Source: a virus. From it: a stretch of DNA of 47,383 nt. Location: the IMG/VR virus record IMGVR_UViG_3300019487_000042, positions 1 to 47,383 of that record, one strand, 5' to 3'. Positions 1,492-46,249 of the stretch are shown piece by piece (within the stretch, counting starts at the first letter, position 1; every line of letters starts with the position of its first letter). The notes beneath the pieces were generated by a model. It searched no databases. It was given only the letters and a program-made list of their open reading frames with translations, and had not been told where the DNA came from. The translations under genes and the position numbers were made by a program.

Positions 1492-1492
1492 G

Positions 1493-2860: not shown

Positions 2861-3585
2861 GCCGAGCCACGCTTCCCGTCGAGATACTGGAACAGACGAT
2901 CCGTCTGCCATTTTCGTTCAGCGGCCCAGGCAGCGGCCCTGTTAGCGGCCCAGGCAGCGACCTCGGCAGCGGCCCAGGCAGCGGCCCAGGCAGCGTCCCT
3001 GGCAGCGGCCCAGGCGGCGACCTCGGCAGCGGCCCAGGCAGCGGCCCTGGCAGCGTACCTGTCAGCGGCCCTGTCAGCGTCCCAGGCAGCGGCATTGGCG
3101 GCGTCACCGGCGACAATCAATTTCTTCTTGGAGACGTTTCCGTTTGCGAAGCCGCGGGCCGCCTCGACCGCCGCCCGTGAACGCGGGTCAACGGCCACTT
3201 CTTTTTTCTCGATACAGTTGAGCGCGCGTTCGGCGCAGTCAGCAGCAAACAGCCGGGCGGTCCGGTCATTCCAAGTGTCGAAACGCGAAACAAGCCTTGC
3301 TTTACGCACCACCGTTTTGCTGCCTGCGTCGATTGTTTCGCCGTCTACTTCGCAAACGAAGACCGCGGGGCCGAGCCACTCGACGAGCTGGCCTCGCAAA
3401 CAAACATGCAGGCCGTTCACACACGGCACCAACATGCCTTCAACCGTTTTCCATTCGCCCGTTCCCGGCAGAGGCCACGACCCTTCGCCGCCGTGGAAGG
3501 CTCCTCCGTCCTCCTCGAGAAACTTGTAGTAAGCGCGCATAGCAGCCCGGCCCTCCTCGCGTTCCAGTTCGCCGGGCTGATTCAC
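2857..3585 (-). CDS. DUF7666-like protein with Ala/Trp repeat tail
   Basis: 242 aa from a GTG at 3585 that overlaps the TGA of the 29-aa gene. Residues 18-130 (YKFLEEDG, WPLPG, NGLHVCLRG, WLGPAVFVCEVDGE, ARLVSRFDTWN, LFAADCAERAL) match the phage/bacterial DUF7666 pattern. Residues 160-225 are an Ala-rich helix in which Trp recurs every 4 or 8 residues (AAAW, AAAEVAAW, AARDAAW). The DNA for this tail (about 2920-3100) is a degenerate tandem repeat of GGCAGCGGCCCAGGCAGCG-like units. Role unknown; the tail could be an oligomerising or membrane-associating helix. Confidence 0.7.
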   Translation of the reverse strand: MNQPGELEREEGRAAMRAYYKFLEEDGGAFHGGEGSWPLPGTGEWKTVEGMLVPCVNGLHVCLRGQLVEWLGPAVFVCEVDGETIDAGSKTVVRKARLVSRFDTWNDRTARLFAADCAERALNCIEKKEVAVDPRSRAAVEAARGFANGNVSKKKLIVAGDAANAAAWDADRAADRYAARAAAWAAAEVAAWAAARDAAWAAAWAAAEVAAWAANRAAAWAAERKWQTDRLFQYLDGKRGSA

Positions 3586-22793: not shown

Positions 22794-24563
22794 TTACGCG
22801 CAGACCCGGCCGCTTCCGTTCCCTGCGACTCCGGCCGTGGTGTCGCCTGACGGGCAGACGGTCGATGTCACGCGAAGCGACTCGACCCCTGCGAGGCAGC
22901 TGACGTTCTCGAACGTTTCCGCGAAGATCTGGAAGTCGTTCGTGGCGTTCAACGTCGAGTCCCTGACGATCCCCAGGTCGAGTGTGCCGCCGTCGAGGAA
23001 CAGAAACGCTCCTTCCGGGAAGATGTACCAGCGCACCGTCGCCGGGAATCCCGCGAGGACGCCTGCGTCTTGAGCACCGTACACCTGCCCGGAGCCTGTG
23101 GCGCCGTCGAGGTACCAGCAGATCGCGACGCCGACCCGTTCCAGCAGCGCCTCCACCTGCATTCTTCCCGCGAGCGGGTTCAACCGGTCGAACTGCGAAG
23201 CGCCCAGGTCGGCGGCGATCAGGTCCTTGACCCAGGCGGGCAGCAGAACCCTGAGAACCGCGTTCGACGACATGCGGTGCCGGGAACGGATCCCTGCGGC
23301 GGCTTGCAGGATCGCGAAGATCAGGTCGGAGTAGGCCCCCAGCGTCGCAGCCTGCGTCACTGGAGTCGACTGCGAGTCGATGCCGTCCAGCAACGCCGTC
23401 TCCGCGAGCCGGGCGTGGGCGGCCATCGCCTTCTCGTTGTAGTTCGCGATCATCTCCGGGAACGCCCTCGAGTTCAGGTTCCCGAACTGCAAGCACTTGT
23501 AGACCATCGCCAACTGGGTTTCGCAGAAGTCGGGGCAGTCCACGACCTGGCACGACTTCGTGGCGAACGTTCCTCCCAGCGCATCGTTGGCGGCGGTCAC
23601 GATCCCCACCCCGGTCACGTCGGCGATCGACGGTTCGGCGGAGAGGGTGACTCCGCCTCGGACGGCGTTGAAGCCGGCGAGGCAGTCGCGGACGGGCCGG
23701 TCGGCGACCGACACCTGGCTGATCTCGTACAGCGGCGTGACGGGGGCGCACAGGCCGCCGGCGGCGGTCAATGCTTCCTCGCCGGTCACAGCGTCGATCT
23801 TCTCCTGGTCGCCCGCGTCGTTGTAGAGGGTGCGTTCCTCCGGGAACAGCGACCCGTAATCCGCCCGAGCTACCAGCACCTTCTCCTGCACCCCTTCGCG
23901 GGTGCTGGTGCCTGACCGCAGCTTCTCCACGATCGCGGCGGCCAAACTCATGCGGTCGAGCCGCGCCCCGCCTTCGAAGCCCTGCAGGCCGGCGGCTGCG
24001 GTGAACGCGGCCGTCTGCTGCTGCTGCTCCACCGGCTGGTGCTGCCTCGACGGCTTCGGCGGCATCGACCTGCGCGCCGGCCGCGTCGAAGCCGTCACCG
24101 GCACCGGAGCCTGCTCCGTCGTCGCGGCCGCCTCGGCTTCGGCGACAACCTCCTCGACAACCTCAACTGTTTCTTCCGCTTCGGCGGCTGCGGCCTCGAC
24201 CTCTTCGGCTGTTTTCTCCTCAACCGTCTCTTCCGCTTTGGCGGCTTCGGCCTCGACCTCTTCGGTTGCTTTCTCCTCGTCGGTTGGCTCCTGGAGCCCG
24301 GCCTTCTCGGAGAGTGCGTTGAGGGAGTTCTCGAACTCGGCGTCTGCCTCGCCGCGGGCGTCCATCTCGGCGGTGATCAGCTCGATCTCCTCCACCGCCT
24401 TCGTGGCCTGGTCGAGCACGTCCTTCATCGTCAGATCGCCGAGGGTTTCCTCGTCGCGGTCCCTCACCTTCGCCAGGACGGCGCGGTGCTCCGCAAGCCG
24501 CTCCTGCAGTTCCTCCGCCGTCAGACCGGTGAGGTCCTTCGGCAGTTCCGGGAAGATGTTCAC
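22794..24563 (-). CDS. Major capsid protein with N-terminal scaffold domain
   Basis: 589 aa from a GTG at 24563 with AGGAGAG 7 nt upstream. Residues 1-90 form charged coiled coil (LTAEELQERLAEHRAVLAKVRDRDEE). Residues about 90-155 are low complexity Glu/Ala/Val/Thr, then a Pro/Gln-rich linker with QQQQ. From about residue 195 the sequence is a globular HK97-type shell candidate (LAAAIVEKLRSG, ATKSCQVVDCPDFCETQLAMVYKCLQFGN, AYSDLIFAILQAAAGIRSRHRMSSNAVLRVLLPAWV). The N-part probably acts as a delta/scaffold domain cut by the protease encoded in the MuF fusion. It has its own promoter-like region upstream. Confidence 0.8.
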   Translation of the reverse strand: MNIFPELPKDLTGLTAEELQERLAEHRAVLAKVRDRDEETLGDLTMKDVLDQATKAVEEIELITAEMDARGEADAEFENSLNALSEKAGLQEPTDEEKATEEVEAEAAKAEETVEEKTAEEVEAAAAEAEETVEVVEEVVAEAEAAATTEQAPVPVTASTRPARRSMPPKPSRQHQPVEQQQQTAAFTAAAGLQGFEGGARLDRMSLAAAIVEKLRSGTSTREGVQEKVLVARADYGSLFPEERTLYNDAGDQEKIDAVTGEEALTAAGGLCAPVTPLYEISQVSVADRPVRDCLAGFNAVRGGVTLSAEPSIADVTGVGIVTAANDALGGTFATKSCQVVDCPDFCETQLAMVYKCLQFGNLNSRAFPEMIANYNEKAMAAHARLAETALLDGIDSQSTPVTQAATLGAYSDLIFAILQAAAGIRSRHRMSSNAVLRVLLPAWVKDLIAADLGASQFDRLNPLAGRMQVEALLERVGVAICWYLDGATGSGQVYGAQDAGVLAGFPATVRWYIFPEGAFLFLDGGTLDLGIVRDSTLNATNDFQIFAETFENVSCLAGVESLRVTSTVCPSGDTTAGVAGNGSGRVCA

Positions 24564-24729: not shown

Positions 24730-25368
24730 TCAGCGCCAGCCCCGTTGCCGGGCGTCCCCGTCGACCATGCACACCGCCATCCTGGAACGTTCGTTCATCC
24801 GGTTCCCGATCAGGCTAGGCACATCATCGGGGTGATCAACCAACGACGGAACGGTTGCCAACACCTCGGTTCGGTGCTCCCGCGCGTACGACCCCACGAT
24901 CGCGTCGTCGGCCCTGCGCTTCGTCACCGGATACTTCAGCGCCGCCCATTCCAGAAACGGCGGGATCGTGTGTGCGGGCCACACAAGCGCAACCACAGGC
25001 ACCCAGGAGCCGGTGTGGAACGGGAACGGGAAGAAGCACTCGTCCCGTTCGCAGGCCCGGTACATGTCCAGGGCGGCGGCGCGATGGGAGCCAGGCACGA
25101 ACAGGGCAAGCATCGAGTTGGGACGAGCCTCCAGCACCAGCTGCATGGTTTCCAGGAAGTGGTCGCAGACGATCGCGTCGTCCTGCAGCACGAGCCGGTG
25201 CGTCGCCTCGGGCGGCGTGAGAAGCAGGCATTGCCGGTAGGTGCGCCACGGGTTCCGGGGCCCGTTGGGTTCCGGGTCGCACACCACGTCGGGCTCGAGG
25301 TGCGCGGAGCGTCGCAGCAGGCCTGCTCGTGCCGGATGGTGTTGGATGCTGACCGAGAGCCGGATCAC
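24730..25368 (-). CDS. Glycosyltransferase-like protein in the head module
   Basis: 212 aa from a GTG at 25368 that overlaps the upstream TGA. HPARAGLL near the N-terminus, then NPWRTYRQCLLLTPPEATHRLVLQDDAIVC with a DD metal-site candidate, LALFVPGSHRAAALDMY, and RRADDAIVGSYAREH near the end. This is the pattern of a family of GT-A-type glycosyltransferases in actinophages. It likely transfers sugar to a phage protein; the neighbour fibre-like protein and capsid are candidate targets. Acceptor unknown. Confidence 0.7.
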   Translation of the reverse strand: MIRLSVSIQHHPARAGLLRRSAHLEPDVVCDPEPNGPRNPWRTYRQCLLLTPPEATHRLVLQDDAIVCDHFLETMQLVLEARPNSMLALFVPGSHRAAALDMYRACERDECFFPFPFHTGSWVPVVALVWPAHTIPPFLEWAALKYPVTKRRADDAIVGSYAREHRTEVLATVPSLVDHPDDVPSLIGNRMNERSRMAVCMVDGDARQRGWR

Positions 25369-25487
25369 TTCGCGTTGGGGCACGGCCGCGTCTTGTTCAG
25401 ACAGCCGGCCACGATCATGTTCAGCGCCTCGTTCCAGCTATTCGCTTCACCGTCTGCCAGTTGGGTTATTCGTACCAGACGCGGCAT
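25365..25487 (-). CDS. 40-aa conserved-looking small protein
   Basis: 40 aa, ATG at 25487 inside the 3' end of the fibre-like gene; its TGA overlaps the glycosyltransferase GTG. Begins MPRLVRITQLADGEANSW and includes a WNEALNMIVAGC helix, ordinary soluble composition unlike the GC-biased antisense frames nearby. Function unknown. Overlap geometry on both sides supports that it is real. Confidence 0.55.
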   Translation of the reverse strand: MPRLVRITQLADGEANSWNEALNMIVAGCLNKTRPCPNAK

Positions 25488-27478: not shown

Positions 27479-30016
27479 TCATGCCGCAATGAACCCGCGG
27501 TCCAGCAGCCGCTGCCTGAGCGCAGACATCTCCTCCGTGTCCGGGTCAGCAACCAGTTCCGCGGCCGCGTCCTGCGCGACCTGCCACTCCTCGGGCGTCA
27601 GCGCGGCCCCGGACTGCGGCGTCGCCGGCCAATACCCGTGGTCGGCGAAGAAGCCGACCCTGTACCCGATCTCTCTGTCCATCTGGTCACCGTAGGCCAT
27701 CACGTCGATCTGTTCTCCACCCACGGGGACGGTGACCTCGACGCGGGGCTGCGCCGGCGCGGACTCCACCGTCACCACAGGAACCTTCCTGACCGCGCTG
27801 GTGCGACGCAGCCTCGCCTCCCGCCCTGTTTCCCCCAGCCCCAGCGCGACAAGCTCGTCGAGGCCTCCTGCGCGGGCCGAAAGGGCGCGGAGCCTGCTTC
27901 GGAACAGCTCGTCCGTCAGGATCTCCAGATCCTCTTGTTCACCGTAGACGCCTGCGGCGACGAGGGCGGTCACGTAGTCGTCGCCGTCTGCCGAAGCTGC
28001 CAGAGCCGCCTGCGGGCGAGGGACGGGGAAGCCGGGGACGTTGACAGCAAGCAACCCGATCATCTCCAGGGCGCCGTTCACGCCACGCCAGTCACCGGAC
28101 AGTTTCGCGCCCTTCAACTCGCGGATCGCCTCTTCACCCACGCTTGGGCGCAACGCACCGGTGACCCAGATGCCGTGGACGCCGTCCCGGGCTACCACGT
28201 CGGCGGCGACCAACCCGGTGTTGTCGTAATGCGCCGCCGCCTCCTGCCTGGAAGCGGTCAAAGACGCGTGGCCGGTACGCAAAGTGATGTTGCCAACAGG
28301 GATCGTTTTCCCGTCGGCGGTGTCTACCGTGCCCAAATGGTAGTAGCGGTACCCGGAGGGGGAGGGAGGCGCTGTGCGGCAACGCCCTGGGAAGCCGGTG
28401 TGGCAGGTGCCCCACAGGGCGGCCCAAGCGTAAATATGTCCTTCCGCCGTGATCGTGATCGGCCCCGCCTCATCCGGTTCCGGGTAGTCGAACCATTCCG
28501 ACGGGGGCTCAACCGGGATCGCGGCCGCCAGAGAACCCAGGTTCTCGCCAACTATCGGTTCGACACCCCAGTCCTCGGGAAGCATCGACACCGCCTCCAG
28601 CTCGCGGGCGCGTTCCGCGTCGAGCTGGAGGGCGCGTTTGATGATGTGGCGCTTCACCCGCAGCTTGTACTCGTCGTTCTGCGCCGACCCACCAAGAGCC
28701 AGGATCGCTTTCTGCAGGAACTCACGGTCAGGGATCGCATAGCTGCCGTCCGGGAGCGCGACGCCTTCCTCGGCCCACCGGCGGCGCTGCTCCACAGTCA
28801 GGGTTGCGGCGATGGATTCTGGATTCTGAAGCTCAATCAAACCGTCTGTGATCTGAAACTCGGTAGATACAACGGTACCGCCGCGCCTCGCTGTGTAAAG
28901 GCCAAGATCGACCGCTTCCCTCATCCCGTCGTGCTCCGGCGGAAGCAATGCTCGCGGATCATGCCTGATCTGCGAACCCAGATGAGGAAGAGAATCAGCA
29001 TGATCTTTCTCGTATTCCTTAACCTTGGCAGACACTGCAGCCGCAGCCATCTCCGGCTGGTTCGCGTACAGAGCCCGCTGGTGCGCCAGCGCCTGATCCT
29101 TGGTTGTGTGGCATTTCACGGTTTCGCCCGTGTCTGTTTTCGTGACGCAGAACTCTCCGTCCCGCTCGAGGATCTTCCAGGGCACCGGTTCCTCCTCCTG
29201 TTCCGCTGCGGCAATGATGCCGCCTTGCTCGGAATGCAACAGCTGCGTAGGCGCTTCGTCGGCGTAGATCAGGGTACAGCGGCAGTTGATGCACTGCGAG
29301 TCCGGGCCGTCCGGATCCCCCGGATACATGAGCGGCACACCGGCGACGTTGAACGGCTGATCTAACGGGACGGTCTGCCCAGACGCCGAAACATGGTCTG
29401 GTCGGGTGCGGTTGTCTCTCGTCGCCAACCACGTCTTCAAAGCCGGGGCCTGGCCCCCCAACGACGTCGCCGTGGCAACAGAGGCGCCGTTCGTGAGGCT
29501 GATCAAGTCGGTTCGCGCGAGCATCGTCGCCTGCGTCCTCGAGAACTCGCTGAACCGTTCCCGCAACGCGTCCGCCGTCCTGGGCACCGACCAACCGTCG
29601 GTGACCGCTTTCAGCATCACGTCCGCCACGGCTTCTTCGGCGCCGGCGACGAGACGCGCCGCCTGTCTCCCGGCCTGCTGCTCAACGAGGGCGGCGAGCA
29701 AAGGGCTCAGTTCGCGTCGGGCGGCGGGGTCGGCTGAAACGATGCTGGCAGCCTCGGCGATCCGTCTCCGGGTCGCCGCCGTTCTCTCCCGCGCTGATTC
29801 CTCGAGGACGCGGGCGTCGAAGATGTCGCCGGTCGACGGGTTCGCCCTCGGTTCGACAGCAGCGACCTGAACAACGGAGGCTTGCCGGTACGCCTTCACG
29901 ACGCTTCGTCCTGCGCTCCTGATCGCCGCCTCGTATTGTGACTGGAGGAGTGGTTCCAGTTGTTCGGCTTCTCTTCGTGCTTGCGCCCAGCCCCGCTGGA
30001 AACGCGTCGCGTTCAC
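27479..30016 (-). CDS. MuF-type minor head protein fused to putative capsid protease
   Basis: 845 aa from a GTG at 30016 overlapping the portal stop. Residues 1-160 are helical; residues 165-255 hold the SPP1 gp7/MuF core (ARTDLISLTNGASVATATS, KTWLATRDNRTRPDHVSASGQ, PLMYPGDPDGPDSQCINCRCTL). A linker follows with VKCHTTKDQALAHQRALY. About residues 500-690 resemble an actinophage capsid maturation protease region (HASLTASRQEAAAHYDNTG, LKGAKLSGDWR, VPGFPVPRPQA). The fusion links head assembly and protease in one chain. A perfect palindromic box lies mid-gene at 28532-28545. Confidence 0.8.
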   Translation of the reverse strand: MNATRFQRGWAQARREAEQLEPLLQSQYEAAIRSAGRSVVKAYRQASVVQVAAVEPRANPSTGDIFDARVLEESARERTAATRRRIAEAASIVSADPAARRELSPLLAALVEQQAGRQAARLVAGAEEAVADVMLKAVTDGWSVPRTADALRERFSEFSRTQATMLARTDLISLTNGASVATATSLGGQAPALKTWLATRDNRTRPDHVSASGQTVPLDQPFNVAGVPLMYPGDPDGPDSQCINCRCTLIYADEAPTQLLHSEQGGIIAAAEQEEEPVPWKILERDGEFCVTKTDTGETVKCHTTKDQALAHQRALYANQPEMAAAAVSAKVKEYEKDHADSLPHLGSQIRHDPRALLPPEHDGMREAVDLGLYTARRGGTVVSTEFQITDGLIELQNPESIAATLTVEQRRRWAEEGVALPDGSYAIPDREFLQKAILALGGSAQNDEYKLRVKRHIIKRALQLDAERARELEAVSMLPEDWGVEPIVGENLGSLAAAIPVEPPSEWFDYPEPDEAGPITITAEGHIYAWAALWGTCHTGFPGRCRTAPPSPSGYRYYHLGTVDTADGKTIPVGNITLRTGHASLTASRQEAAAHYDNTGLVAADVVARDGVHGIWVTGALRPSVGEEAIRELKGAKLSGDWRGVNGALEMIGLLAVNVPGFPVPRPQAALAASADGDDYVTALVAAGVYGEQEDLEILTDELFRSRLRALSARAGGLDELVALGLGETGREARLRRTSAVRKVPVVTVESAPAQPRVEVTVPVGGEQIDVMAYGDQMDREIGYRVGFFADHGYWPATPQSGAALTPEEWQVAQDAAAELVADPDTEEMSALRQRLLDRGFIAA
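28532..28545. promoter_or_regulatory. Palindromic box 7, exact
   Basis: AGAACCCAGGTTCT, within the middle of the MuF fusion gene (residues ENLGS). Confidence 0.8.
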
Positions 30017-31836
30017 AGGATCTTCGCAGCGTACGCCGTAAAGGCGGCAGGCAAAGGTTCGTGCGGGCCAAACAGATGCTTAGCGGCGTGCTGCTCGATC
30101 AGCTGCGCCAACCGCTTCGACTTCGACGCGTCCACATGCCACACCTTCAAGCACTGCCGGAAAGTGTCCGTCGCCCCCTGCACCAGCGTCGTAGCGTTCG
30201 TGCCGAACTCCTTCACCTGCGCCGGCCCCAACGCGGAAGCGATCATGCCCTGCTCAACAAGAGCTATTTTCTCGCTGCAGTCCGGGCATCCGTTCCCGTT
30301 CCGCGCCTTTGACACCAGGCGTGACCCGGCGAGCTCCCGGGCGCGGATAGCGGCCGCCTCCGCCGCCCCGGCCACCCTCGCCAGCAGCGCCGAGGCGACC
30401 TGTGCGTCCTCGTCCCGCAACGCGTCTTCGGACGGCGGCGTCTCGAGAGTCTCGGCGGCGTTGTCGGCAGCCTCACCCTCAGAACCCAGGTTCCCGTCGT
30501 CGAGCAGCAACGGGTCCCGGAGCTTGATCGCCAGGTACTCGTCGTGTTCCTCTTTGCCTTGCTTGTCGTCCTCGGAGAAGCCGGTGACCTCCCGCAGCTT
30601 CTCGCCGGACAGCAAGCCATCTTTGAACAGTTCTTTCGCGTCCTTCGCCCGGTCGGGATGGTTGATCACGCTGGAAGGGTCGTAGGCGACCACGATGTCG
30701 CGCCACTCCGGCACGTTCTGATCCCGCATCGACGGGCGCAGGAACGCAGCCGTCAAATCATCCACCAGCTGCTGCGCCATGGGCTGCAGATGCGCTGTCC
30801 ATGTTTGGTCGTCGATCAGCCAGGCCGTCCAGTGGTTCGCCTCAGCGATCCCCAGCAGCAATTCAGACGGCATGTCCATGCCGGTCGCGATCCGTTTGAT
30901 GATCTCCTGCCGCAACCCGGTTTCCTGATAAGTCTCGGTCGGGTCGTGCAACCGCAGAAACTTCACTTTCTCGATGTGTTCCCCGTCCGCGTGCACGACG
31001 ATCGGCACCAGCGCAGACGCTGAACCGGGATCCTTGATCGCGGCCATGATCGTTTCGTGCAGGTCCTTCATGAACGGGTCGGTGCGCTGATCCTCCGGCC
31101 CCTCGGTGCCAACGGGCGGGAACGTGATCTCTTTGGGGATGAACAGGATGCCGCCTGCGCTGGCCAGCCTCGACTCCTGCCGAGCCCTGACAGCCAACTC
31201 GAACCTGACTAACTCTTCGAAGAGGCCGAGGACGGCGCGCATCGGCGAATCTGCCCACATGCTGTATTCCGGTGACGGACGGTAGAGCCGGTACACCCGT
31301 GCACGGCTGCCCTGCTGCTCGAACTCGTCGTCGGATATCTCGGAGAGTTCCTCCTGAGGCATGAACGGGGCACGCATCCGGTACCAACGATCCCCCTGCC
31401 GGCGAAGCTCGTTCACGGACAGAAACTCCCAATACTCGTCCTCCTCCTCGTCCTCCGGCTGCGTCGCGATCAGGTAGCCGTCCCCGTTCAGGAACATCAA
31501 GCGGCCATAAGCACCCAACAGCTTCGAGCGGCCGCCTCCCTGGTCCTGCACGCGGTCCAGTTCGACGCTCGCTTCATGATTCTCAGGGAGTTCCTCAACG
31601 GTTCCGTCGGGGCCCTGCAGACCCGCGAACAAACGGAGTGTGGAGAGGGCGCGCGCGTAGAACTGGGAGGCGTACCACGCCTCAGGGACGGTGTAGTAGA
31701 ACCTGAACGCGTCCTGCTGCCAAGGCATCCCCAACCTGCCGAGGCGGCCGACCTCGCCTTGCCTCATCTTCTGCACAGCACCCAGCAGCGACGGAACCGA
31801 GATCCTCGCTGTTGAGTCAGCCTTCCCTTGCCCCAT
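30013..31836 (-). CDS. Portal protein
   Basis: 607 aa, ATG at 31836. Typical siphovirus portal content: FYYTVPEAWYASQFYARALS and GAYGRLMFLNGDGYLIA in the N-half, YRLYRPSPEYSMWADSPMRAVLG and LASAGGILFIPKEITFPP in the middle, KVKFLRLHDPTETYQETGLRQEIIKRIATGMDMPSELLLG, then WTAHLQPMAQQLVDDLTAAFLRP. The portal forms the DNA entry ring in the head. The C-terminal 200 residues are extended and acidic with a CxxC (GCPDC) pair; one box copy (30481-30494) falls here. First large gene of the head operon. Confidence 0.88.
   Translation of the reverse strand: MGQGKADSTARISVPSLLGAVQKMRQGEVGRLGRLGMPWQQDAFRFYYTVPEAWYASQFYARALSTLRLFAGLQGPDGTVEELPENHEASVELDRVQDQGGGRSKLLGAYGRLMFLNGDGYLIATQPEDEEEDEYWEFLSVNELRRQGDRWYRMRAPFMPQEELSEISDDEFEQQGSRARVYRLYRPSPEYSMWADSPMRAVLGLFEELVRFELAVRARQESRLASAGGILFIPKEITFPPVGTEGPEDQRTDPFMKDLHETIMAAIKDPGSASALVPIVVHADGEHIEKVKFLRLHDPTETYQETGLRQEIIKRIATGMDMPSELLLGIAEANHWTAWLIDDQTWTAHLQPMAQQLVDDLTAAFLRPSMRDQNVPEWRDIVVAYDPSSVINHPDRAKDAKELFKDGLLSGEKLREVTGFSEDDKQGKEEHDEYLAIKLRDPLLLDDGNLGSEGEAADNAAETLETPPSEDALRDEDAQVASALLARVAGAAEAAAIRARELAGSRLVSKARNGNGCPDCSEKIALVEQGMIASALGPAQVKEFGTNATTLVQGATDTFRQCLKVWHVDASKSKRLAQLIEQHAAKHLFGPHEPLPAAFTAYAAKIL
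30481..30494. promoter_or_regulatory. Palindromic box 8, one mismatch
   Basis: AGAACCCAGGTTCC, in the acidic C-terminal part of the portal gene (residues GNLGSE). Confidence 0.7.
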
Positions 31837-34327: not shown

Positions 34328-34639
34328 CTAGTCGTCGAGGTTCTGGGCGACGAGGGCCACGACCGCGTTTACGGCCCACGGGACGGAGGCCACGATGGTT
34401 GCGTGAGGCCAGATCAGCCAGGCTCCCCACCATGCCAGCGTGATCCACGATCCGAGGCACCAGGAGCAGTGGAGGAAAACGTCAACCTCTTTGCGGTGCT
34501 TCCCCGCCTCTGCCTTCGCCCGCCTCGTCAACCAGTTGCGGGGCCGGTCGAGGATCGCGTCGGCTGCCAGCAGCCGCCACACCCGGAAGCTTGCGCCGGC
34601 AAGCAGCGCGAACTCCCACCAGGAAGGGATGTTACTCAT
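34328..34639 (-). CDS. DUF1360-like membrane protein
   Basis: 103 aa, ATG at 34639. ASFRVWRLLAADAILDRPRNWLTRR, then FLHCSWCLGSWITLAWWGAW and a last hydrophobic segment (VPWAVNAVVALVAQ) match the DUF1360 pattern (R..RL...D.I, then CxxC-containing membrane helix). Possibly two or three spans. Function of the family is not known. It closes the glycan island transcript. Confidence 0.7.
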   Translation of the reverse strand: MSNIPSWWEFALLAGASFRVWRLLAADAILDRPRNWLTRRAKAEAGKHRKEVDVFLHCSWCLGSWITLAWWGAWLIWPHATIVASVPWAVNAVVALVAQNLDD

Positions 34640-35420
34640 CGCCGCAGCCCTCTCGCTTTCGTTCGTGGCTTCCCCCTGTCATATCTCGGTTCGCCCTCGC
34701 CGCCAACGCATCTTTACGGTCGCGCAGCTGCGCCGGCCACGGACACGCCTGCGTCTTTACACGATCGTCGGTCCACATGATCGACTCCAGATGCGCCTGC
34801 GCGTGAAACCGTCCCCCGTCAGCGACGGCGTAACGGTCGTAACGGGCTCGTCTATCCGCCTCACAAGCCCAGCCGAAATGAAGCACGCTAACCCCCGACG
34901 ACGCCGACCTGGAGCCCGCACCCGTAGGTGTCCTCCCGCACGCCAGCTGACGGTCCATGATCCGCCCGAACTTCTGGCTCGTCGACCACGCGAGCGGAAC
35001 CTCATGAGGAAGCCAGCCCCCGTCCACACGCACACGCAGCGCGTCCTCATCGGCCTCCCAGACTTCCTCCATGCACAGACGCCACGAATGAACTCTGGGG
35101 TGCAGTTCGATCAGGCGGCGAAGCTCAGGGCCGTCCTCCACGAACTCGTCAGCGTCGATGGCCAACACGTGCGTCGGGGAAGCTTGCAGCGTCCACTCCA
35201 ACGCTCTCTGCCGCGCCGAGCCCTCATGCTCGTAGAACTGGGAACGGTTCGCACGCAGAACCTGGGTTCTGGGGAAGCCGGAAGCTACACCGTAGGTTTC
35301 GTCGGTGGAAGCGTCGTCGTAGACACGGATCTCGTCGCAGAACTCCAGTAGATGCTCCAGGCACAAGGCGAGATAGCGGTCCGCCTCGTTGCGGACGATC
35401 AGGCTGGCAGCGAGATTCAT
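34632..35420 (-). CDS. Glycosyltransferase, family 2-like
   Basis: 262 aa, ATG at 35420. GT-A start (LAASLIVRNEADRYLALCLEHLLEFCDEIRVYDDASTDET), sugar-nucleotide/metal motif IDADEFVED near residue 93, then RLCMEEVWEADEDALRVRVDGGW. It should transfer a sugar from an NDP donor. Member of the glycan island; acceptor unknown. A perfect palindromic box gives the residues RTQVL at 35257-35270. Overlaps the DUF1360 gene. Confidence 0.8.
   Translation of the reverse strand: MNLAASLIVRNEADRYLALCLEHLLEFCDEIRVYDDASTDETYGVASGFPRTQVLRANRSQFYEHEGSARQRALEWTLQASPTHVLAIDADEFVEDGPELRRLIELHPRVHSWRLCMEEVWEADEDALRVRVDGGWLPHEVPLAWSTSQKFGRIMDRQLACGRTPTGAGSRSASSGVSVLHFGWACEADRRARYDRYAVADGGRFHAQAHLESIMWTDDRVKTQACPWPAQLRDRKDALAARANRDMTGGSHERKREGCGDE
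35257..35270. promoter_or_regulatory. Palindromic box 11, exact
   Basis: AGAACCTGGGTTCT, in the glycosyltransferase gene 34632-35420 at about codon 50-55. Confidence 0.8.
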
Positions 35421-35429
35421 GCCTCTACG

Positions 35430-35957
35430 CTACGCAGGCTTCACAGCCCTGTAACGCAACGCCAGCCCCGTCTCCAGCCGATCGCCCGCAACGAAGCCCG
35501 CGTCGCTCAGAACCGCTCCCAGCAACTCCTCGTTCCAGCCCGAAAGGTGCGCGTTCAGCAGCGGCTCGTGGAGGACACCCTCCACATCCTCGCTGTAGAA
35601 CCACTGCAGCAGCCCCTGCCTGTCCTCATGGCAGTTCAGCCACGCGGCGCACATCCGGTCGAGGTCAGGCACCTCCACATCGAAGACGCCGCCGGGCTTC
35701 AGCACCCGGAACACGTGCCGCACCGCCCGCCCAGCCCGATGCACAGTCAAATGCTCGAGCGTGTGATGCATACGCACCTCGTCGAAAGACGCCTCCGCGA
35801 ACGTCAGCTGGGCCGCATCCATCACATAGTCAACCGGGACGCCGCACTGAAGCACCGGATGCCAGATCGGCCTCGACGACGCGTCCACATGCACGTTCCG
35901 CCAGCCGTCCTCGGCCACGTAGTAGTTGATCGTTCCGAGGATCAGACGCTTCTTCAC
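35430..35957 (-). CDS. SAM-dependent methyltransferase, class I
   Basis: 175 aa from the GTG at 35957, the first start after the upstream gene ends. WRNVHVDASSRP, YVMDAAQLTFAEASFDEVRMHHTLEHL and HVFRVLKPGGVFDVEVPDLDRM are the post-I, motif II and motif III regions of small-molecule or sugar methyltransferases; motif I is atypical, so the family is Methyltransf_11-like. Presumably methylates a sugar made or added by the neighbouring enzymes. Confidence 0.75.
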   Translation of the reverse strand: MKKRLILGTINYYVAEDGWRNVHVDASSRPIWHPVLQCGVPVDYVMDAAQLTFAEASFDEVRMHHTLEHLTVHRAGRAVRHVFRVLKPGGVFDVEVPDLDRMCAAWLNCHEDRQGLLQWFYSEDVEGVLHEPLLNAHLSGWNEELLGAVLSDAGFVAGDRLETGLALRYRAVKPA

Positions 35958-35985
35958 CGCTTCGGAACAAATTCGGATTCGTCGC

Positions 35986-36696
35986 TCACGCCGCCGCCTC
36001 AAAACCCAGGTTCTCGATCCAATCCCAATAATGCGCAGCCGGGTCATACAGCGGCCAGGGACGCTGCCAGCCCCGCTCCCTATACCCCTCAGAGAGTGAG
36101 CGCCACGGCTCCACCGGAACGAAATCCAGGCTGCACACCATCAGATCAGGGGTGATCCAGCCGCGCTGCGGACGGTAGACGCACTGCCATTCCGTGAAAC
36201 CGAAACGTCCGTTCTGCTTCGGCGCCGGGTACCGTTTGAACGGGGCGGTGCGCATCAACCCCACCCCGCCGATGTGGGTTGACGGCGTCCACCCGTACAC
36301 ACCGTGAAAACCGTCGGTCGGGACCTTCGTTCGGCCGGCCTCCATCCCCAACAGATCCAGGGTCGGGTTCCTGTCCATCACGAACAGCATCGCCTCCAAC
36401 CACCCCGGCGGCACAGCGATGTCGTTGTCCACCTTCGCGAACATGCCGGCTTCGGATCTGCGGATGTAGTCGTTTGTCGTCGCCACCGGCGACCGGTACT
36501 CGGTGCTCACGAACTCGCAGGGGACGGGGGCGCGCTCGAGGTTGTCGCGCAGCCAACCGGCGGTGCCGTCCTCGGAACCGTCGTCGTACACGTAGAGGCG
36601 GCTGACATGCTCCCAGGCTGTGTGTCGCAGCATCGCCTCGAAACTGAACCTGGAGAACTCCAGGCGGTTCCAGGCGAGGTAGACCAGGTCAAGCAT
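35986..36696 (-). CDS. Glycosyltransferase, GT-A type
   Basis: 236 aa, ATG at 36696, overlapping the upstream gene by 8 bp. MLDLVYLAWNRLEFSRFSFEAM, LYVYDDGSEDGTAGWL and KVDNDIAVPPGWLEAML (DND metal motif) define a GT-A fold. Later THIGGVGLMRTAPFKRYP and EWQCVYRPQRGW complete the acceptor side. A box copy encodes the last residues (ENLGF, 36001-36014). Acceptor unknown. Confidence 0.78.
   Translation of the reverse strand: MLDLVYLAWNRLEFSRFSFEAMLRHTAWEHVSRLYVYDDGSEDGTAGWLRDNLERAPVPCEFVSTEYRSPVATTNDYIRRSEAGMFAKVDNDIAVPPGWLEAMLFVMDRNPTLDLLGMEAGRTKVPTDGFHGVYGWTPSTHIGGVGLMRTAPFKRYPAPKQNGRFGFTEWQCVYRPQRGWITPDLMVCSLDFVPVEPWRSLSEGYRERGWQRPWPLYDPAAHYWDWIENLGFEAAA
36001..36014. promoter_or_regulatory. 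Palindromic box 12, one mismatch
   Basis: AAAACCCAGGTTCT, in the last codons of the gene 35986-36696. Confidence 0.7.
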
Positions 36697-37378
36697 CACG
36701 CACCTTCCGTGCCATCTCCAGAACCTGGGTTCTCTCCCCATAGTGATTCGGCTGTTTCCACATTCTTTTCTCGTCGTACGCGTACGGCAGAACCTCAACA
36801 GGCACGTCCACGAGCAGCCGCCGGGTCAGCGTCGTGAACACCACATCGGCTGTCCTACGAAACAACGGCCCGTCCCACGCACCGATCTTTTCGCCGCTGT
36901 CCAGCGTGCGCTCCAAGCTCGTCCAGTTGGTGACAGATTCGTGAATGAGCATCTTGTCGAACGCGTCCTTGGGTAGCTCCCGCTGGAAGCAGGCCCCGAA
37001 CCCCACAAGACACGAATCGGGGTAATGCGGTCTGAACTCCTGAGGCATGTTCGCCACGACGCAATCACAGCGGGCCGACGACGAAACCCGCCACGCCTCC
37101 GCCAATGCTGCCGGGTCGCTCACGATGCAGTCGTCGTCCTGAACATAGATCAGGTCATGGAACGCGTAGGGGATCGCTGCGTACCGGCCATACACCGCAA
37201 GATCAGGCTGATGCCCCAGATGCTGCCCATACGAGCTGTGCCGCATGGTATCCGGAGCCCAGCGCCACAACACCCCATTATTGATCCAAAGCAAAACCTC
37301 CCAGCCGCCCGGGAGGCTCTCGAGGATCGGAACCAAATCCACGTCGCCTCTGGTGACGATGATCGCTGACACGGTCAC
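36689..37378 (-). CDS. Glycosyltransferase-like protein
   Basis: 229 aa from a GTG at 37378 overlapping the upstream TGA. TVSAIIVTRGDVDLVPILESLPGGWEVLLWINNG start; LIYVQDDDCIVSDPAAL carries the metal-binding DDD; GVGACF-like region VGFGACFQRELPKDAF follows. Fits GT-A enzymes of the glycan island. The 3' end contains a perfect box (36720-36733), which sits 24 nt before the next gene's ATG. Confidence 0.72.
   Translation of the reverse strand: MTVSAIIVTRGDVDLVPILESLPGGWEVLLWINNGVLWRWAPDTMRHSSYGQHLGHQPDLAVYGRYAAIPYAFHDLIYVQDDDCIVSDPAALAEAWRVSSSARCDCVVANMPQEFRPHYPDSCLVGFGACFQRELPKDAFDKMLIHESVTNWTSLERTLDSGEKIGAWDGPLFRRTADVVFTTLTRRLLVDVPVEVLPYAYDEKRMWKQPNHYGERTQVLEMARKVRDA
36720..36733. promoter_or_regulatory. 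Palindromic box 13, exact
   Basis: AGAACCTGGGTTCT, at the end of the gene 36689-37378 and 24 bp before the ATG at 36696. Confidence 0.8.
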
Positions 37379-37917
37379 CAGGCAGCCACCGAGCAACGCA
37401 GATCCCGAAGCAGCCGGCGCCTAGCCTGGAGATAGTGGCGTGGCTGCTCCATCTTCTGATCGTGCCACTCCACCAGCAGCCAGTCGATCAGCGAGTCGGA
37501 ACCGTCCTCATGCAGATACGAGAGCAGCGCGAACTCGGCACCCTCAATGTCCATCTTCACCACCACCCGTTCGAAACCGGCGCCGGCGTGACGGAGGTGT
37601 CGTAGCCAGACGGCGAAGTCGAAGCACGGCACCTCGATAACGTCGCCGGCCCACTCGTTGCGGGAGTTCTTGGCGCGGACGATCGTGGAGTCCCATGAGC
37701 GTTCCCTGTTCACATGCGCGTACTCGCAGAAGCCGTCATGGGTCCAGGCTGCCGACCGGCGGATCTCGACTCTCGTGCCGAACAGGTAAGAATCAGAGTC
37801 GACGAGGCCAGGCCACGGGTCGAACCCGTACAGGGTGTCCGGTTGGAACCGGTCGATCAGCTGACCAATAGACTGCTCCGGTCCGTGGGGGGCGCAGCCA
37901 AGGTCGACGACGATCAT
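37375..37917 (-). CDS. FkbM-family methyltransferase
   Basis: 180 aa, ATG at 37917 (ATGA overlap). MIVVDLGCAPHG is motif I, YGFDPWPG the acidic loop, RSAAWTHDG and VVVKMDIEGAEFALL (FkbM hallmark 'K.DIEG.E') follow, with LLVEWHD near the end. FkbM enzymes O-methylate hydroxyls of sugars or polyketides. In this cluster sugar O-methylation is most likely. Confidence 0.82.
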   Translation of the reverse strand: MIVVDLGCAPHGPEQSIGQLIDRFQPDTLYGFDPWPGLVDSDSYLFGTRVEIRRSAAWTHDGFCEYAHVNRERSWDSTIVRAKNSRNEWAGDVIEVPCFDFAVWLRHLRHAGAGFERVVVKMDIEGAEFALLSYLHEDGSDSLIDWLLVEWHDQKMEQPRHYLQARRRLLRDLRCSVAAW

Positions 37918-38480
37918 CGCTGCGCCACGCACCCGTAGCCCAACGGGAACTCGAAGCCGCCCAGGTTGATCTCCGCGCGCCGCTCATGCTTCAGGATCTC
38001 AAAACCGATGCTGGACAGCATGTGCTCCATACCTGTTTTCGTGAACCGAGTATGGTCAGCTTCTTCTACCTCGTCCCAATTGGTCGTGTAAGTCAACACC
38101 AGAAACCCGCCGTCCTTCAGCATCCAGTGGAGGCACATCAGTGCCTCGCCGGGGCCGCTGACCACTACGTCGTGATCTCCGCAGTTCCGTTTCCGAGTCG
38201 GGAAGAACTGCATGACCTGGGTACAGAGGATCGAGTCCCATGGGCTGCCTGAAAATGGCCACTCCCCCACGTCCTCACCCTCCGTCACGGAGCCTGGATG
38301 ATCAGCCCGGTCATACCCGTGATACTCGCCTTCGAACGACTCCACAAGTTTCCTGTAGGGCTGCTGCCCGCACCCGTAGTCCAGGACGCGCCCTTTCAGA
38401 TAGGGGCCGCACGTCTCAAGGAACTTTTGGATCGAGGATCGCTCCAGCTGCCGGATCGAGGATGCGTTCCAGCCGCTCAC
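37914..38480 (-). CDS. SAM-dependent methyltransferase
   Basis: 188 aa from a GTG at 38480, which follows the upstream stop by 22 bp. LKGRVLDYGCGQQPYRKLV is motif I with the GxG loop, YHGYDRADHPG the acidic motif II, and MCLHWMLKDGGFLVLTYTT the later motif. A class I methyltransferase of the UbiE/Methyltransf_11 type, substrate unknown, in the glycan island. Confidence 0.8.
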   Translation of the reverse strand: MSGWNASSIRQLERSSIQKFLETCGPYLKGRVLDYGCGQQPYRKLVESFEGEYHGYDRADHPGSVTEGEDVGEWPFSGSPWDSILCTQVMQFFPTRKRNCGDHDVVVSGPGEALMCLHWMLKDGGFLVLTYTTNWDEVEEADHTRFTKTGMEHMLSSIGFEILKHERRAEINLGGFEFPLGYGCVAQR

Positions 38481-38502
38481 CGGTGCCCAATCTGCATCTC
38501 GG

Positions 38503-39078
38503 TCACAGCACGTACTCCCAGAGGCCGCCCATGAAATGATCCCTCGTCGAGGGATGCTGAATCTGGGACTCGTAGCAGGCGAGGGCACGATGCTTCAACG
38601 CAGGCCAGTGAGGCTCGAACTCCACAGACTGCCCGCCGCGCGACCGGCCATGCGAACGCGTGTAGGTGAGGTACTCGATCAGCCGATCGGGGCCGAACGC
38701 CAGGTGGGCGAAGCGGGAAACGAGGTTGTGCTGGTCGTGACCTCCGGGTTCGTAGGCAGGCGCGATGCAGTAGTAGTGATCTACGGCCACGTCGGCAATC
38801 CTCTGACAGAGGGGAGGCATAGCTCCCCGTCTTGTGTCCGGGATGTCCCACGTCTCCCAGTCCTCGACGCCGAGGACTTCCATCGCTGCCTGCGTCTCGG
38901 CGTCCCGTTGCGCAGACGTGATCGGCTCCGCCGCCCCTGGTTCCCGTTCGAACGTGTAGCCGCGCTCGTACTGCACCACCGCCCGCGTGCAGATAATCAC
39001 CTTCGGACGGTGCCGCAGAATCTGGAAACAAGCGAACAACGCCTCATCGTCATGGTGTGGGGCAAGCAGCACAGTCAT
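38503..39078 (-). CDS. PIG-L/LmbE family deacetylase
   Basis: 191 aa, ATG at 39078 (ATGA overlap). LLAPHHDDEALFACF near the N-terminus and GGHDQHN near residue 113 carry the metal-binding His-x-Asp-Asp and His-x2-His set of N-acetylglucosaminide deacetylases. It should remove acetyl from an N-acetylated sugar, giving a free amine for the other enzymes or for altered charge. Among neighbours it is the only hydrolase of the island. Confidence 0.85.
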   Translation of the reverse strand: MTVLLAPHHDDEALFACFQILRHRPKVIICTRAVVQYERGYTFEREPGAAEPITSAQRDAETQAAMEVLGVEDWETWDIPDTRRGAMPPLCQRIADVAVDHYYCIAPAYEPGGHDQHNLVSRFAHLAFGPDRLIEYLTYTRSHGRSRGGQSVEFEPHWPALKHRALACYESQIQHPSTRDHFMGGLWEYVL

Positions 39079-39614
39079 CGCTTCTGCATCTGCTGCAACC
39101 GACGCTTCCGCTCGTACCTGCCAACCAGGGGGCGGGGGAAACCGGCGGCCTCGATCGCGTCAGCCCAATACGCAAAGGGTGCACCAGGACTGTCACTGCC
39201 GCGGTATACGCTCGAGGGCGTCGGCCACCAACGATCAGGATTGCCTGCCGACCACTCACCGGAACGCGGCGGGCGGCCATACTCCGCTGCCCAACGCTGG
39301 ACAGCCGCGATCACGCGTTCCCGCGTCCAGTACCGCTGTTCGTGCTGGCGCAATCTAGAGCAGGCACCGCAGATTTTCGGTGCTTTGGCGCGGCCGTTAG
39401 AGCCGCTGGTGCGGCTACCGCACCGCACACAAGTTCCGCCATAGCTGTTCTTTCTTGCGCGGTCCTTGCTGCCGTCAGGATCATGGAACAGGTCACACAC
39501 ATAGCTTTCCGAGACACCCATGACGGCGGCGATCTCGCGGGCATACAACCCTTTCGCCTGCAGCCGGGCCGCCTCGGCGTACCGCTGCGCCCGCGTCACC
39601 TTTACGTCACCCAT
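39075..39614 (-). CDS. DNA-binding protein with HTH and homing-endonuclease-associated repeat
   Basis: 179 aa, ATG at 39614. Residues 8-45 form a helix-turn-helix (RYAEAARLQAKGLYAREIAAVMGVSESYVCDLF), then a CVRCGSRT...CGAC zinc ribbon, then WTRERVIAAVQRWAAEYGRPPRSGEW and PSSVYRGSDSPGAPFAYWADAIEAAGFP, the DNA-binding repeat seen with homing nucleases. It may be a regulator or a defective mobile nuclease part. Inside the glycan island and possibly a control gene for it. Confidence 0.72.
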   Translation of the reverse strand: MGDVKVTRAQRYAEAARLQAKGLYAREIAAVMGVSESYVCDLFHDPDGSKDRARKNSYGGTCVRCGSRTSGSNGRAKAPKICGACSRLRQHEQRYWTRERVIAAVQRWAAEYGRPPRSGEWSAGNPDRWWPTPSSVYRGSDSPGAPFAYWADAIEAAGFPRPLVGRYERKRRLQQMQKR

Positions 39615-39624
39615 CGCTAACCAC

Positions 39625-40326
39625 TCACGCTACATCCACAGGAGCCTTTACGGAATCCCCCAAAAGGGTTAAAGCCCGCCTGCGCCGCTGCCAAACCACC
39701 CTGTCGGCGCCGTAGCCGGCGCGGCCGCGCTCATATGTCGCATCCTCCGCGGCTTTCCCCCACACCGGATGCAGATGCTCCACCTGGGCACCAGGGCAGA
39801 ACACGAACTCGTCACGCGCCTTCGCCGTCTCCACCAGCTCGTTGTCCACCCAGTTATGCGCATATCCCTCGTGCAGAACCTGGGTTCTGTCGTCGAAGGT
39901 GCCAAGATCGCAGTAGGAGCGCTCGAGCAGGGAGTGGGTGGCGTGCAGGCCGCTGATCACCGTCGGGTTCGAAAGGTCGTTGGTGCCGACCACACGTTTC
40001 CCCGTGGCGTCGTGGCATTCGACCGCCCGGTCCGCCCATCCGTCGCAGAAGCATAGGTCGTCTGCGCCAAGGAAGATGAAGTCCTCGTCTGAGGCGCGGA
40101 TGCCTGCGTTCAGCTTCCGTGCGTAGTCGCCGGGGCCGGCGGGGTCGGCCATCACCAGGCAGTCCTCACCTGAGTCGCCGACCGCCTGCAGTTCGGCGTA
40201 GTCGTCGGGGCTGGCGAGGAACAGAGCGCGCAGCTTGTGGTCGCGCTCGCTGCCATACAGTGACTCCAGAAGGTCAGGCACGCGTTGCGGGCGTCCGAGG
40301 ACGGGGATGAGGATAACGACGCTCAT
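39625..40326 (-). CDS. Glycosyltransferase, family 2-like
   Basis: 233 aa, ATG at 40326 overlapping the stop of the tiny methyltransferase remnant (ATGA). SVVILIPVLGRPQRVPDLLESL, then FIFLGADDLCFCDGWADRAV (ADD metal motif), GTNDLSNPTVISGLHATHSLLERSYCDLG and WVDNELVETAKARDEF make a GT-A enzyme. A perfect box (39875-39888) encodes DDRTQVL. First gene of the glycan cluster in transcription order. Confidence 0.8.
   Translation of the reverse strand: MSVVILIPVLGRPQRVPDLLESLYGSERDHKLRALFLASPDDYAELQAVGDSGEDCLVMADPAGPGDYARKLNAGIRASDEDFIFLGADDLCFCDGWADRAVECHDATGKRVVGTNDLSNPTVISGLHATHSLLERSYCDLGTFDDRTQVLHEGYAHNWVDNELVETAKARDEFVFCPGAQVEHLHPVWGKAAEDATYERGRAGYGADRVVWQRRRRALTLLGDSVKAPVDVA
39875..39888. 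promoter_or_regulatory. Palindromic box 14, exact
   Basis: AGAACCTGGGTTCT, in the glycosyltransferase gene 39625-40326 at about codon 147-151. Confidence 0.8.
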
Positions 40327-40424
40327 GCAGCGGCCGCCTCGAGCCCCGCCCGGTGGTGGCCCGCCGCCGCGCCGCCGGCGCCGCAGAACAGGTCGAGCAG
40401 CCGTTGTTTACTCACCGTCGTCAT
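40323..40424 (-). pseudogene. N-terminal remnant of a C5 DNA methyltransferase
   Basis: 33 aa: a short start, then RLLDLFCGAGGAAAGHHRAG, which is the SAM-binding motif I of cytosine-5 methyltransferases, and a stop after LEAAAA. The catalytic PCP, ENV and recognition parts are absent. The ATG (40424) overlaps the upstream gene and the TGA overlaps the glycosyltransferase ATG, so the stub is still set in the operon. Either decay of a methyltransferase cut by arrival of the glycan genes or a kept micropeptide. Confidence 0.65.
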
Positions 40425-41888: not shown

Positions 41889-41902
41889 AGAACCCAGGTT
41901 CT
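41889..41902. promoter_or_regulatory. Palindromic box 16, exact, overlaps terminase stop
   Basis: AGAACCCAGGTTCT; two of its bases are part of the TAG stop of the large terminase (41903-41901). Confidence 0.8.
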
Positions 41903-43463
41903 ATCGCAGAGCACCCGGCACCGACACGATCGCTGTTGACGCTCTGCGTCTCGTCCAGTTCAGCATCTGTGTGAACTGATCAACCTGGTCGTCGTGCTTC
42001 CCGTGCGGGAACGACGCGCACTCCTCCACCAGCAACTGTACGTCAGCGGGGGTGCGCGGATCGTAACCGGTCAGATCGGCGTCAGGGTATCCGGGCAGGT
42101 AGCAGTTCCCTGACTCCAGAGCAGGCGCTGCTGCTTCGGCCCGCATCTCCTTCGATCCTTTAGACGCCACGGCGACGACGCCCTGCACGCGACGTTTGAT
42201 CTCGGCGATGGCGTCGGGGCCGTTCGCGGCGGCCTCTATCAGGATGTTCTGCGCCGTTTCCGGCCACAGATGCAGAGCCCACGTCGACAGCTCCAGCATC
42301 GCTTCAATCGTGGCGTTCAACCCTGCGCGTCCGCGCCACAACCTGAGCAGGTACCGGTCGGCGCCGTGCACGCCCCAGACTCCTCCGGCCACGAAGTCGG
42401 AATGCTCCCGGTCCTTGACCGACGTGTCCCATGAGTGGACTATCCGGCCGAACACCGGAAGCCGTTCCACCTCCTCGGCCCCGAACCGTTCCCGACTGTA
42501 GAAACTGAGGGAGGGCGGGTAATAGCGCCAGTCGGCGCGTCTCAGCATCGCCCCCTCACGCGGGGCGGGGCGTTGCTGCAGCTGGCCGGCGGCGACGCGT
42601 TCCGTCATGTCCATGGAGAGCTCGGTGAGGGCGCGTTCGCTGATCCGGTCAGGCCACAACAGTTCGCCGTCGTCGCTGCGGGGGTCGTCCGGCCACGCGA
42701 ACGGGTGCTTCGGCTCAAACCGGGCCGGTAGACAAAGGTGCGTCCAGCGGCCTTCGCGCTCGAGCACATGCCCGGCCATGTCGCCTTCGTGCAGGCGCTG
42801 CATGACGATCACCTCAACCCCCGTCTCCGGGTCGTTGAACCTCGACGCCCAGGTGTTTCCGTACCAACTGATCACGGCGGACCGTTTCGTGTCCGATATC
42901 GCCTCCTCAGCCTGGTGCGGGTCGTCGAGGATCAAAACATCGCCGCCGTCGCCTGTGCCTCCTCCGACGTGGGTGGCGATCCGGTAGCCGGTGTCCGTGT
43001 TCTCGTATCGCGATAACCTGTTCACGTCGCCTTTCAACTGGACGTGGGGCCACCTTGCCTGGTACCAGCGGGACAGGATCAGGTCACGAGACTTCACGGC
43101 GTCGCGTTGCGCCAGCTGGTCGGCGAAACTGGCGGTCAGGAACTTGAGATGCGGTTCGAACGTCCAACGCCACGCCGGCCAAAACACGCTGACCGTAAGC
43201 GATTTCATGTGGCGCGGCGGAACGTTGATCAGCAAACGTTGGATCTCGCCGTGCCTCGCGGATTCGAGGTGTTCGCAGATCGCGTCGATGTGCCAGTTAG
43301 GCACAAACCTCGTCTTCGGCTCCAGGACGTGCCACGCCTCGCCGATGAACTTCCTGAGGTCCCTGCTCCATTCCTGCGCCTGCTCGGCGAAGGTTTGCTG
43401 CTGGCGGGTGCGGTTGATGCTCGCCTCGAGTTCCTCCAATGAGAGAGGTACGAGTTGGCTCAT
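41901..43463 (-). CDS. Terminase large subunit
   Basis: 520 aa, ATG at 43463. LLINVPPRHMKSLT near residue 80 is the Walker A variant, DVLILDDPHQ near 176 the Walker B, HSWDTSVKD near 344 the first nuclease Asp, followed by ILIEAAANGPDAI and a C-terminal GKHDDQVDQ with the last acidic cluster. It packages DNA through the portal by ATP hydrolysis and cuts concatemers. The TAG stop (41903-41901) overlaps a perfect palindromic box. About 10 kb separate it from the portal gene. Confidence 0.93.
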   Translation of the reverse strand: MSQLVPLSLEELEASINRTRQQQTFAEQAQEWSRDLRKFIGEAWHVLEPKTRFVPNWHIDAICEHLESARHGEIQRLLINVPPRHMKSLTVSVFWPAWRWTFEPHLKFLTASFADQLAQRDAVKSRDLILSRWYQARWPHVQLKGDVNRLSRYENTDTGYRIATHVGGGTGDGGDVLILDDPHQAEEAISDTKRSAVISWYGNTWASRFNDPETGVEVIVMQRLHEGDMAGHVLEREGRWTHLCLPARFEPKHPFAWPDDPRSDDGELLWPDRISERALTELSMDMTERVAAGQLQQRPAPREGAMLRRADWRYYPPSLSFYSRERFGAEEVERLPVFGRIVHSWDTSVKDREHSDFVAGGVWGVHGADRYLLRLWRGRAGLNATIEAMLELSTWALHLWPETAQNILIEAAANGPDAIAEIKRRVQGVVAVASKGSKEMRAEAAAPALESGNCYLPGYPDADLTGYDPRTPADVQLLVEECASFPHGKHDDQVDQFTQMLNWTRRRASTAIVSVPGALR

Positions 43464-45965: not shown

Positions 45966-46249
45966 GAATCCTCCTCGACGGGGTCATAAGTGGCCGTGAA
46001 GATTTCTGGTTTGCAGGTGTAAAACTCACCCTGAACACCCTTGATGATCCAGTCGCCGGGAGAAACACTAAAGTCACCTTCGAGTGTCCAAATCCGTGCA
46101 TCACGCACATCATCAGCGGTGGCGAATACGTACGACAGGATAGGTTCTTCCTGGCCGGCATTAACCCAGCGGCACAGAGACTCAAAGTCGCTACGGCTCC
46201 CGTCCCACTGGTGAGCATCGATCACCACCGGCTTTTTGCGGTATTTCAT
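45962..46249 (-). CDS. Common phage protein with PGDWIIKG motif
   Basis: 95 aa, ATG at 46249 (ATGA overlap with the methyltransferase stop). MKYRKKPVVIDAHQWDG and the block SVSPGDWIIKGVQGEFYTCKPEIFTATY are the two ends of a widespread phage protein family (PGDW-type) of unknown function. About 30% lower local GC than the glycine-rich genes. Identification by motif is firm, role is not. Confidence 0.75.
   Translation of the reverse strand: MKYRKKPVVIDAHQWDGSRSDFESLCRWVNAGQEEPILSYVFATADDVRDARIWTLEGDFSVSPGDWIIKGVQGEFYTCKPEIFTATYDPVEEDS

Follow-up and report, generated by a model that had tools for sequence, protein, structure and literature searches.

The 47,383-base window analyzed here (the whole stretch of DNA, a single IMG/VR virus record) carries, between the terminase and portal genes of a tailed phage, a cassette of genes that we predict to assemble and tailor a glycan: a multi-sugar chain with modified amino sugars, carried by a virion protein as the predicted acceptor. 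We put the probability of this reading at roughly 60%. Judged from gene content and order, the cassette is conserved and can be swapped in part; it resides in the head-gene region of uncultured viruses from two unrelated groups. The original prediction, made on the window alone, held that these genes suffice to add a sugar chain, remove N-acetyl groups and methylate the product, and that the phage may decorate its virion or alter host surface glycans. The building and tailoring of a glycan is supported by our analysis, and of the two targets the virion fits better than the host surface.

Organization of the cassette

The minus strand of the window encodes the head and tail module, and all window coordinates given below are those of minus-strand (-) features. 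The cassette slot is bounded upstream by the gene for the terminase large subunit (41901..43463; phrog_38) and downstream by that for the portal protein (30013..31836; phrog_776). The major capsid protein (22794..24563; phrog_777), a possible acceptor, is 41% identical to the capsid protein of Arthrobacter phage Atuin. A glycan gene island had been predicted at 34328-40326, and all gene types named were recovered at that place and on that strand. The order of transcription, from terminase to portal, is: GT40, a gene with an HTH and an HNH-associated repeat, PIG-L, MT38, an FkbM-like gene, GT37, GT36, MT35, GT34 and DUF1360. The last of these, encoding a DUF1360/phrog_781 protein (34328..34639; PF07098, 33.6 bits), was missing from the original list; this gene adjoins the cassette in the head module and, in isolates, indicates where the empty site lies (see below). 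The claim of ATGA or GTGA overlaps between most genes was overstated: overlaps occur at five of the nine junctions and are of this type at three (three overlaps of 4 bases, two of 8 bases, and four gaps of 9-28 bases).

The enzymes encoded

The four genes predicted to encode GT-A-like glycosyltransferases retained that assignment. GT34 (34632..35420; PF13704, 39.1 bits) and GT36 (35986..36696; PF00535, 24.2 bits; invariant KxDxD) are GT2-family enzymes that score above the Pfam cut-offs; GT37 (36689..37378) and GT40 (39625..40326; phrog_14945), for which no GT2 Pfam model reached its cut-off, adopt the GT-A fold in their predicted models. In a Foldseek search of the PDB the AlphaFold2 model of GT40 (pLDDT 93, pTM 0.90) matched K4CP, SpsA and TarP, the first two being best, and that of GT37 (pLDDT 90, pTM 0.88), the hallmark enzyme with a near-invariant YVQDDDC in the alignments of its relatives, had as top fold match the N-acetylhexosaminyltransferase EXTL2. 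The match of the GT37 model to EXTL2 would fit a GlcNAc-type substrate for PIG-L, with which it is compatible without demonstrating one. The cassette supplies families of small, soluble glycosyltransferases for which a close solved relative was not found in this analysis. A fifth glycosyltransferase gene, gtr24 (24730..25383; phrog_854 glucosyltransferase), lies outside 34328-40326, where it adjoins the major capsid gene and is flanked by this gene and one for a glycine-rich protein. The latter protein (25466-27457; 663 residues, in which GxYPNP-type segments recur and the C-terminal half is long and rich in glycine) is encoded between the protease-side genes and gtr24, and a PHROG search with it returned no match.

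The deacetylase call was upheld. The predicted PIG-L family N-acetyl deacetylase (38503..39078) passed PF02585 at 40.8 bits and has intact catalytic motifs, HxDDE and HxxH (zinc/catalytic residues) being invariant across nine relatives; its relatives in the PDB are LmbE (2ixd), BshB and diacetylchitobiose deacetylase. The presence of BshB in this list, and the combination of glycosyltransferase, deacetylase and methyltransferase that is typical of mycothiol-like and aminoglycoside pathways, would also suit a cassette whose product is a small glycosylated or amino-sugar metabolite. Ligase, cyclitol or scaffold genes were not seen, however, and a metabolite would leave the conserved insertion into the head module unexplained; we regard such a product as very unlikely.

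Both class I methyltransferases that had been predicted are above Pfam methyltransferase cut-offs: MT38 (37914..38480; class I SAM methyltransferase; PF13489, 31.0 bits) and MT35 (35430..35957; PF08241, 39.5 bits). The predicted FkbM methyltransferase (37375..37917) has the KMDIEGAE motif but falls below the curated cut-offs of Pfam (PF05050, 19.8 bits versus 22.7) and NCBIfam (TIGR01444, 24.5 versus 37.7), and is therefore called FkbM-like. MT35 has a degenerate motif I that misses the clear glycine-rich form, and it has homologues in lineage B cassettes (see below); both MT35 and the FkbM-like protein are divergent in sequence and may not be active. The gene listed as encoding a DNA-binding protein (39075..39614) is present as well, its actual content being an HTH_23-like segment and the HNH-associated repeat PF18780 (27.8 bits). 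Beyond the window it was found only in the L048 cassette, at a different position, and it is probably a relic of a mobile element rather than a pathway enzyme.

Distribution in uncultured viruses

A single-protein PIG-L query recovered no relative from the viral contigs, whereas a GT37 query recovered 14 relatives; a GT37 profile recovered 51 loci, and some 40 IMG/VR records proved in profile searches to contain the GT37-GT36 core. Locus genes were called by a codon-usage script and labelled with profiles built on the window and its relatives. Lineage A (24 non-redundant records) has the arrangement terL-GT40-PIG-L-(MT38/FkbM)-GT37-GT36-GT34-DUF1360-portal-protease-gtr24-capsid, in which small inserts vary. 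GT40, the first cassette gene past the terminase, is present in 24 of the 24 lineage A records that extend into the 5' part; GT36 and GT34 are likewise present in 24 of 24 (the records were sampled by GT37, which forces neither), and gtr24 precedes the capsid gene in 15 of the 24 loci. Lineage B (15 records) has a portal (phrog_12) and a capsid (phrog_10) of other families, and mostly PIG-L, MT38, GT37 and GT36 adjoining the capsid and connector genes. In the GT36 tree the two lineages form separate groups. Dozens of diverged viruses share these families in a common order at 30-50% identity, which makes the cassette more than a product of chance. That the accessory genes are unrelated, loosely assembled and share no pathway, as the interspersed HNH genes and small ORFs and the varying gene content would suggest, is in our estimate very unlikely, given that the order is kept across two lineages, that the deacetylase is replaced and that the tailoring genes are linked (see the next section).

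As the first loci had been picked via GT37, a second sampling was done by terminase alone, independent of GT37; the alignment of 19 portal sequences was too divergent for use as a search query. A glycosyltransferase cassette was present in every record of lineage A arrangement that spans the terminase-DUF1360 interval, including four in which GT37 was undetected (L098, L103, L104 and L117); L099, sampled in the same way, has the full set. The terminase relatives recovered outside lineage A had no cassette. GT37 gave only four weak matches in genome contigs, and no host can therefore be named.

The cultured actinophages Rizwana, Bakery and Mischief19 have homologous portal and DUF1360/phrog_781 proteins, and their terminase-portal interval contains phrog_781 and no annotated glycosylation gene; going by annotation, this terL-phrog_781-portal order corresponds to the arrangement expected of an empty site. 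Tblastn searches with GT36, GT37, GT40, PIG-L and MT38 returned no match among 50,697 phage records, and GT34 returned one weak match. The cluster with a deacetylase and three methyltransferases, which the original prediction called unusual, is modular, conserved and not known from isolates. A phage cassette with PIG-L or another deacetylase was not found in the open-access literature searched; virion glycosylation is already established, and the amino-sugar-tailoring cassette appears to be undescribed in that literature.

Replacement of the deacetylase and exchange of tailoring genes

PIG-L is missing from three lineage A records (L056, L103 and L104), which have a CE4/NodB-type deacetylase after GT40 instead (PF01522, 93.8 bits in L056). 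Two unrelated deacetylases of like activity in the same position suggest that deacetylation is a retained function. The partners of PIG-L were, by record: MT38 (n = 23), a GNAT acetyltransferase (n = 3; L048, L050 and L058), an N-formyltransferase (n = 2; L054 and L064), or a protein with an RFGDGD motif alone (n = 3). Within the tabulated set MT38, GNAT and the formyltransferase are mutually exclusive by record, and MT38 is confined to PIG-L records (23 of the 23 with MT38 have PIG-L). Any of the four tailoring genes is found in 31 of 32 records with PIG-L versus none of the seven without, a post hoc grouping that amounts to two or three phylogenetically independent contrasts, nearly all in the same direction and too few for significance; this co-occurrence of genes is a lead, not proof.

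The tailoring state changed at least eight times on a portal tree of 20 rows, which indicates swapping. HNH endonuclease genes lie inside or beside the cassettes (L054:5169-5648, L064:1981-2580 and L014:11583-12053) and may be the engine of this exchange. A UDP-glucose dehydrogenase-like gene (L117:8137-9225; phrog_9148) was observed within a lineage A cassette without deacetylase. The RFGDGD-motif protein is conserved (L014:10125-10850, L071:10548-11267) and recurs in L008 and in L069 as the C-terminal half of a fused protein; the 'GTD' profile used to tabulate the tailoring genes was rebuilt without the fused methyltransferase domains. The protein had no sequence match in Pfam, NCBIfam or the PDB. 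It may resemble the GT-D type, an assignment for which these three resources gave no support, and is possibly a new type of glycosyltransferase.

It is conceivable, although we would sooner bet against it, that the terminase-portal interval of lineage A and the capsid-connector interval of lineage B act as virion 'serotype loci'. These would combine a fixed glycosyltransferase core with a deacetylase that can be exchanged (PIG-L for CE4) and an amine-capping slot (methyl-, formyl-, acyl- or other transferase), and would give related uncultured phages different amino-sugar coats under selection, like the O-antigens of bacteria.

The acceptor of the glycan

The original prediction had named action of the genes on DNA bases as its refuter, and this outcome is disfavoured. 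In that case the cassette would hypermodify the viral DNA by placing sugars on 5-hydroxymethylcytosine or 5-hydroxymethyluracil. Pyle et al. (2024; cited in PMC12619734) reported virus glycosyltransferases that put diverse glycans on DNA, a C5 DNA methylase is encoded in the window (334-1782; PF00145), and a methylase stub is located directly upstream of GT40. However, TET/JBP was found in none of 18 records searched and a thymidylate-synthase-type enzyme (hydroxymethylase) in none of 10, records that may be incomplete, and the C5 methylase is patchy: it occurs in six of 18 records and is absent from the 64 kb G005, which has the full cassette. We consider DNA to be a quite improbable acceptor. 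The stub is an ORF of 33 codons (40323-40424; MTTVSKQRLLDLFCGAGGAAAGHHRAGLEAAAA) that corresponds to the N-terminal motif I of a C5 cytosine DNA methylase (PF00145, 10.8 bits) and ends in an ATGA overlap with the start of GT40; by its sequence it looks like the remnant of a truncated methylase at the cassette border. DNA methylases are encoded near both ends of the record, the second being an N6/N4 enzyme (46246-47382; PF01555).

The enzymes might instead change a cell-surface glycan of the host in infection, thereby blocking superinfection or altering a receptor. Loci for surface polysaccharides commonly encode PIG-L, CE4, FkbM and GNAT enzymes. Serotype conversion by phages is known (mentioned in PMC12619734). 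Yet the cassette enzymes have no strongly hydrophobic segment (maximum 19-residue hydropathy ≤ 1.5), and membrane proteins of the GtrA/GtrB/GtrC type, a flippase or a polymerase were not seen. The lack of a membrane segment in the enzymes and of a visible assembly gene speaks against a host surface glycan, as does the position among head genes in two lineages, and we hold this explanation to be unlikely.

A virion protein is the simplest acceptor left, given the position within the head module of unrelated viruses and the virion glycans reported for mycobacteriophages (PMC12619734). The head-gene neighbourhood is a circumstantial pointer in this respect. No specific acceptor tail emerged when capsid C-termini were compared: they look alike whether or not the cassette is present. 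Elsewhere in the window, a protein is encoded (2857-3585) that gave an Imm5-like match and contains an AAWAA-type repeat.

Proposed pathway and relation to known systems

In the pathway that we propose for a virion glycan, the cassette would be co-transcribed with the late head genes. In the cytoplasm, soluble GT-A transferases would draw on the sugar nucleotides of the host and assemble a short chain on a virion protein. An N-acetylhexosamine would be added in one or more of these steps; PIG-L would then take off its acetyl group, and MT38, the FkbM-like enzyme and MT35 could place methyl groups on the exposed amine or on hydroxyls. Related viruses would use N-formyl or N-acyl transfer in place of methylation by MT38; a GNAT that acts after the deacetylase would make sense only with a different acyl group or at a different site. 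The glycan on the finished particle, with amino sugars or methylated, would vary in structure among viruses. The proposal builds on the gene content, catalytic motifs, gene order, place in the head module and deacetylase and tailoring swaps, and on a route to hydroxylated DNA bases not having been detected in the sequences; we infer the order of the enzymes, the identity of the sugars, late expression and the virion-protein acceptor. Glycans on phage particles are so far known from few isolates, whose enzyme sets are simple. If the pathway operates as proposed, many environmental phages wear complex and variable coats, which bears on adsorption, particle stability and particle recognition. The particles of lineages A and B are predicted to carry deacetylated, methylated, formylated or acylated hexosamines.

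Bacterial loci for surface amino sugars (O-antigen/S-layer type) combine a deacetylase with N-formyl, N-acetyl and methyl tailoring and with gene swapping. The cassette shares the deacetylase, the tailoring and the swapping with these loci, and differs in that it is without membrane assembly genes, encodes soluble enzymes and is part of a phage head module. Glycans of actinobacteriophages have been reported on the C-termini of capsid and tail-tube proteins, with a shielding role (Freeman et al. 2023, cited in PMC12619734). The virion glycosylation of mycobacteriophages is alike in that phage glycosyltransferases are involved; the isolates described (PMC11256854, PMC10955285) have two putative transferases, whereas the window has genes for five together with a deacetylase and three methyltransferases. 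The record Caudovirales GX15bay from mangrove soil has a similar run of glycosyltransferase-type genes with a methyltransferase upstream of the terminase, and a weak GT34 match, but the run lies on the opposite side of the terminase, and the record has no annotated deacetylase and gave no match to GT36 or GT37. In the Actinoplanes phage phiAsp2, genes pas33-pas35 encode a glycosyltransferase, a putative O-methyltransferase and a glucosyltransferase and adjoin structural genes, as in the window, but are three genes only and without a deacetylase; pas35 is the sole relative of gtr24 in an isolate (31%).
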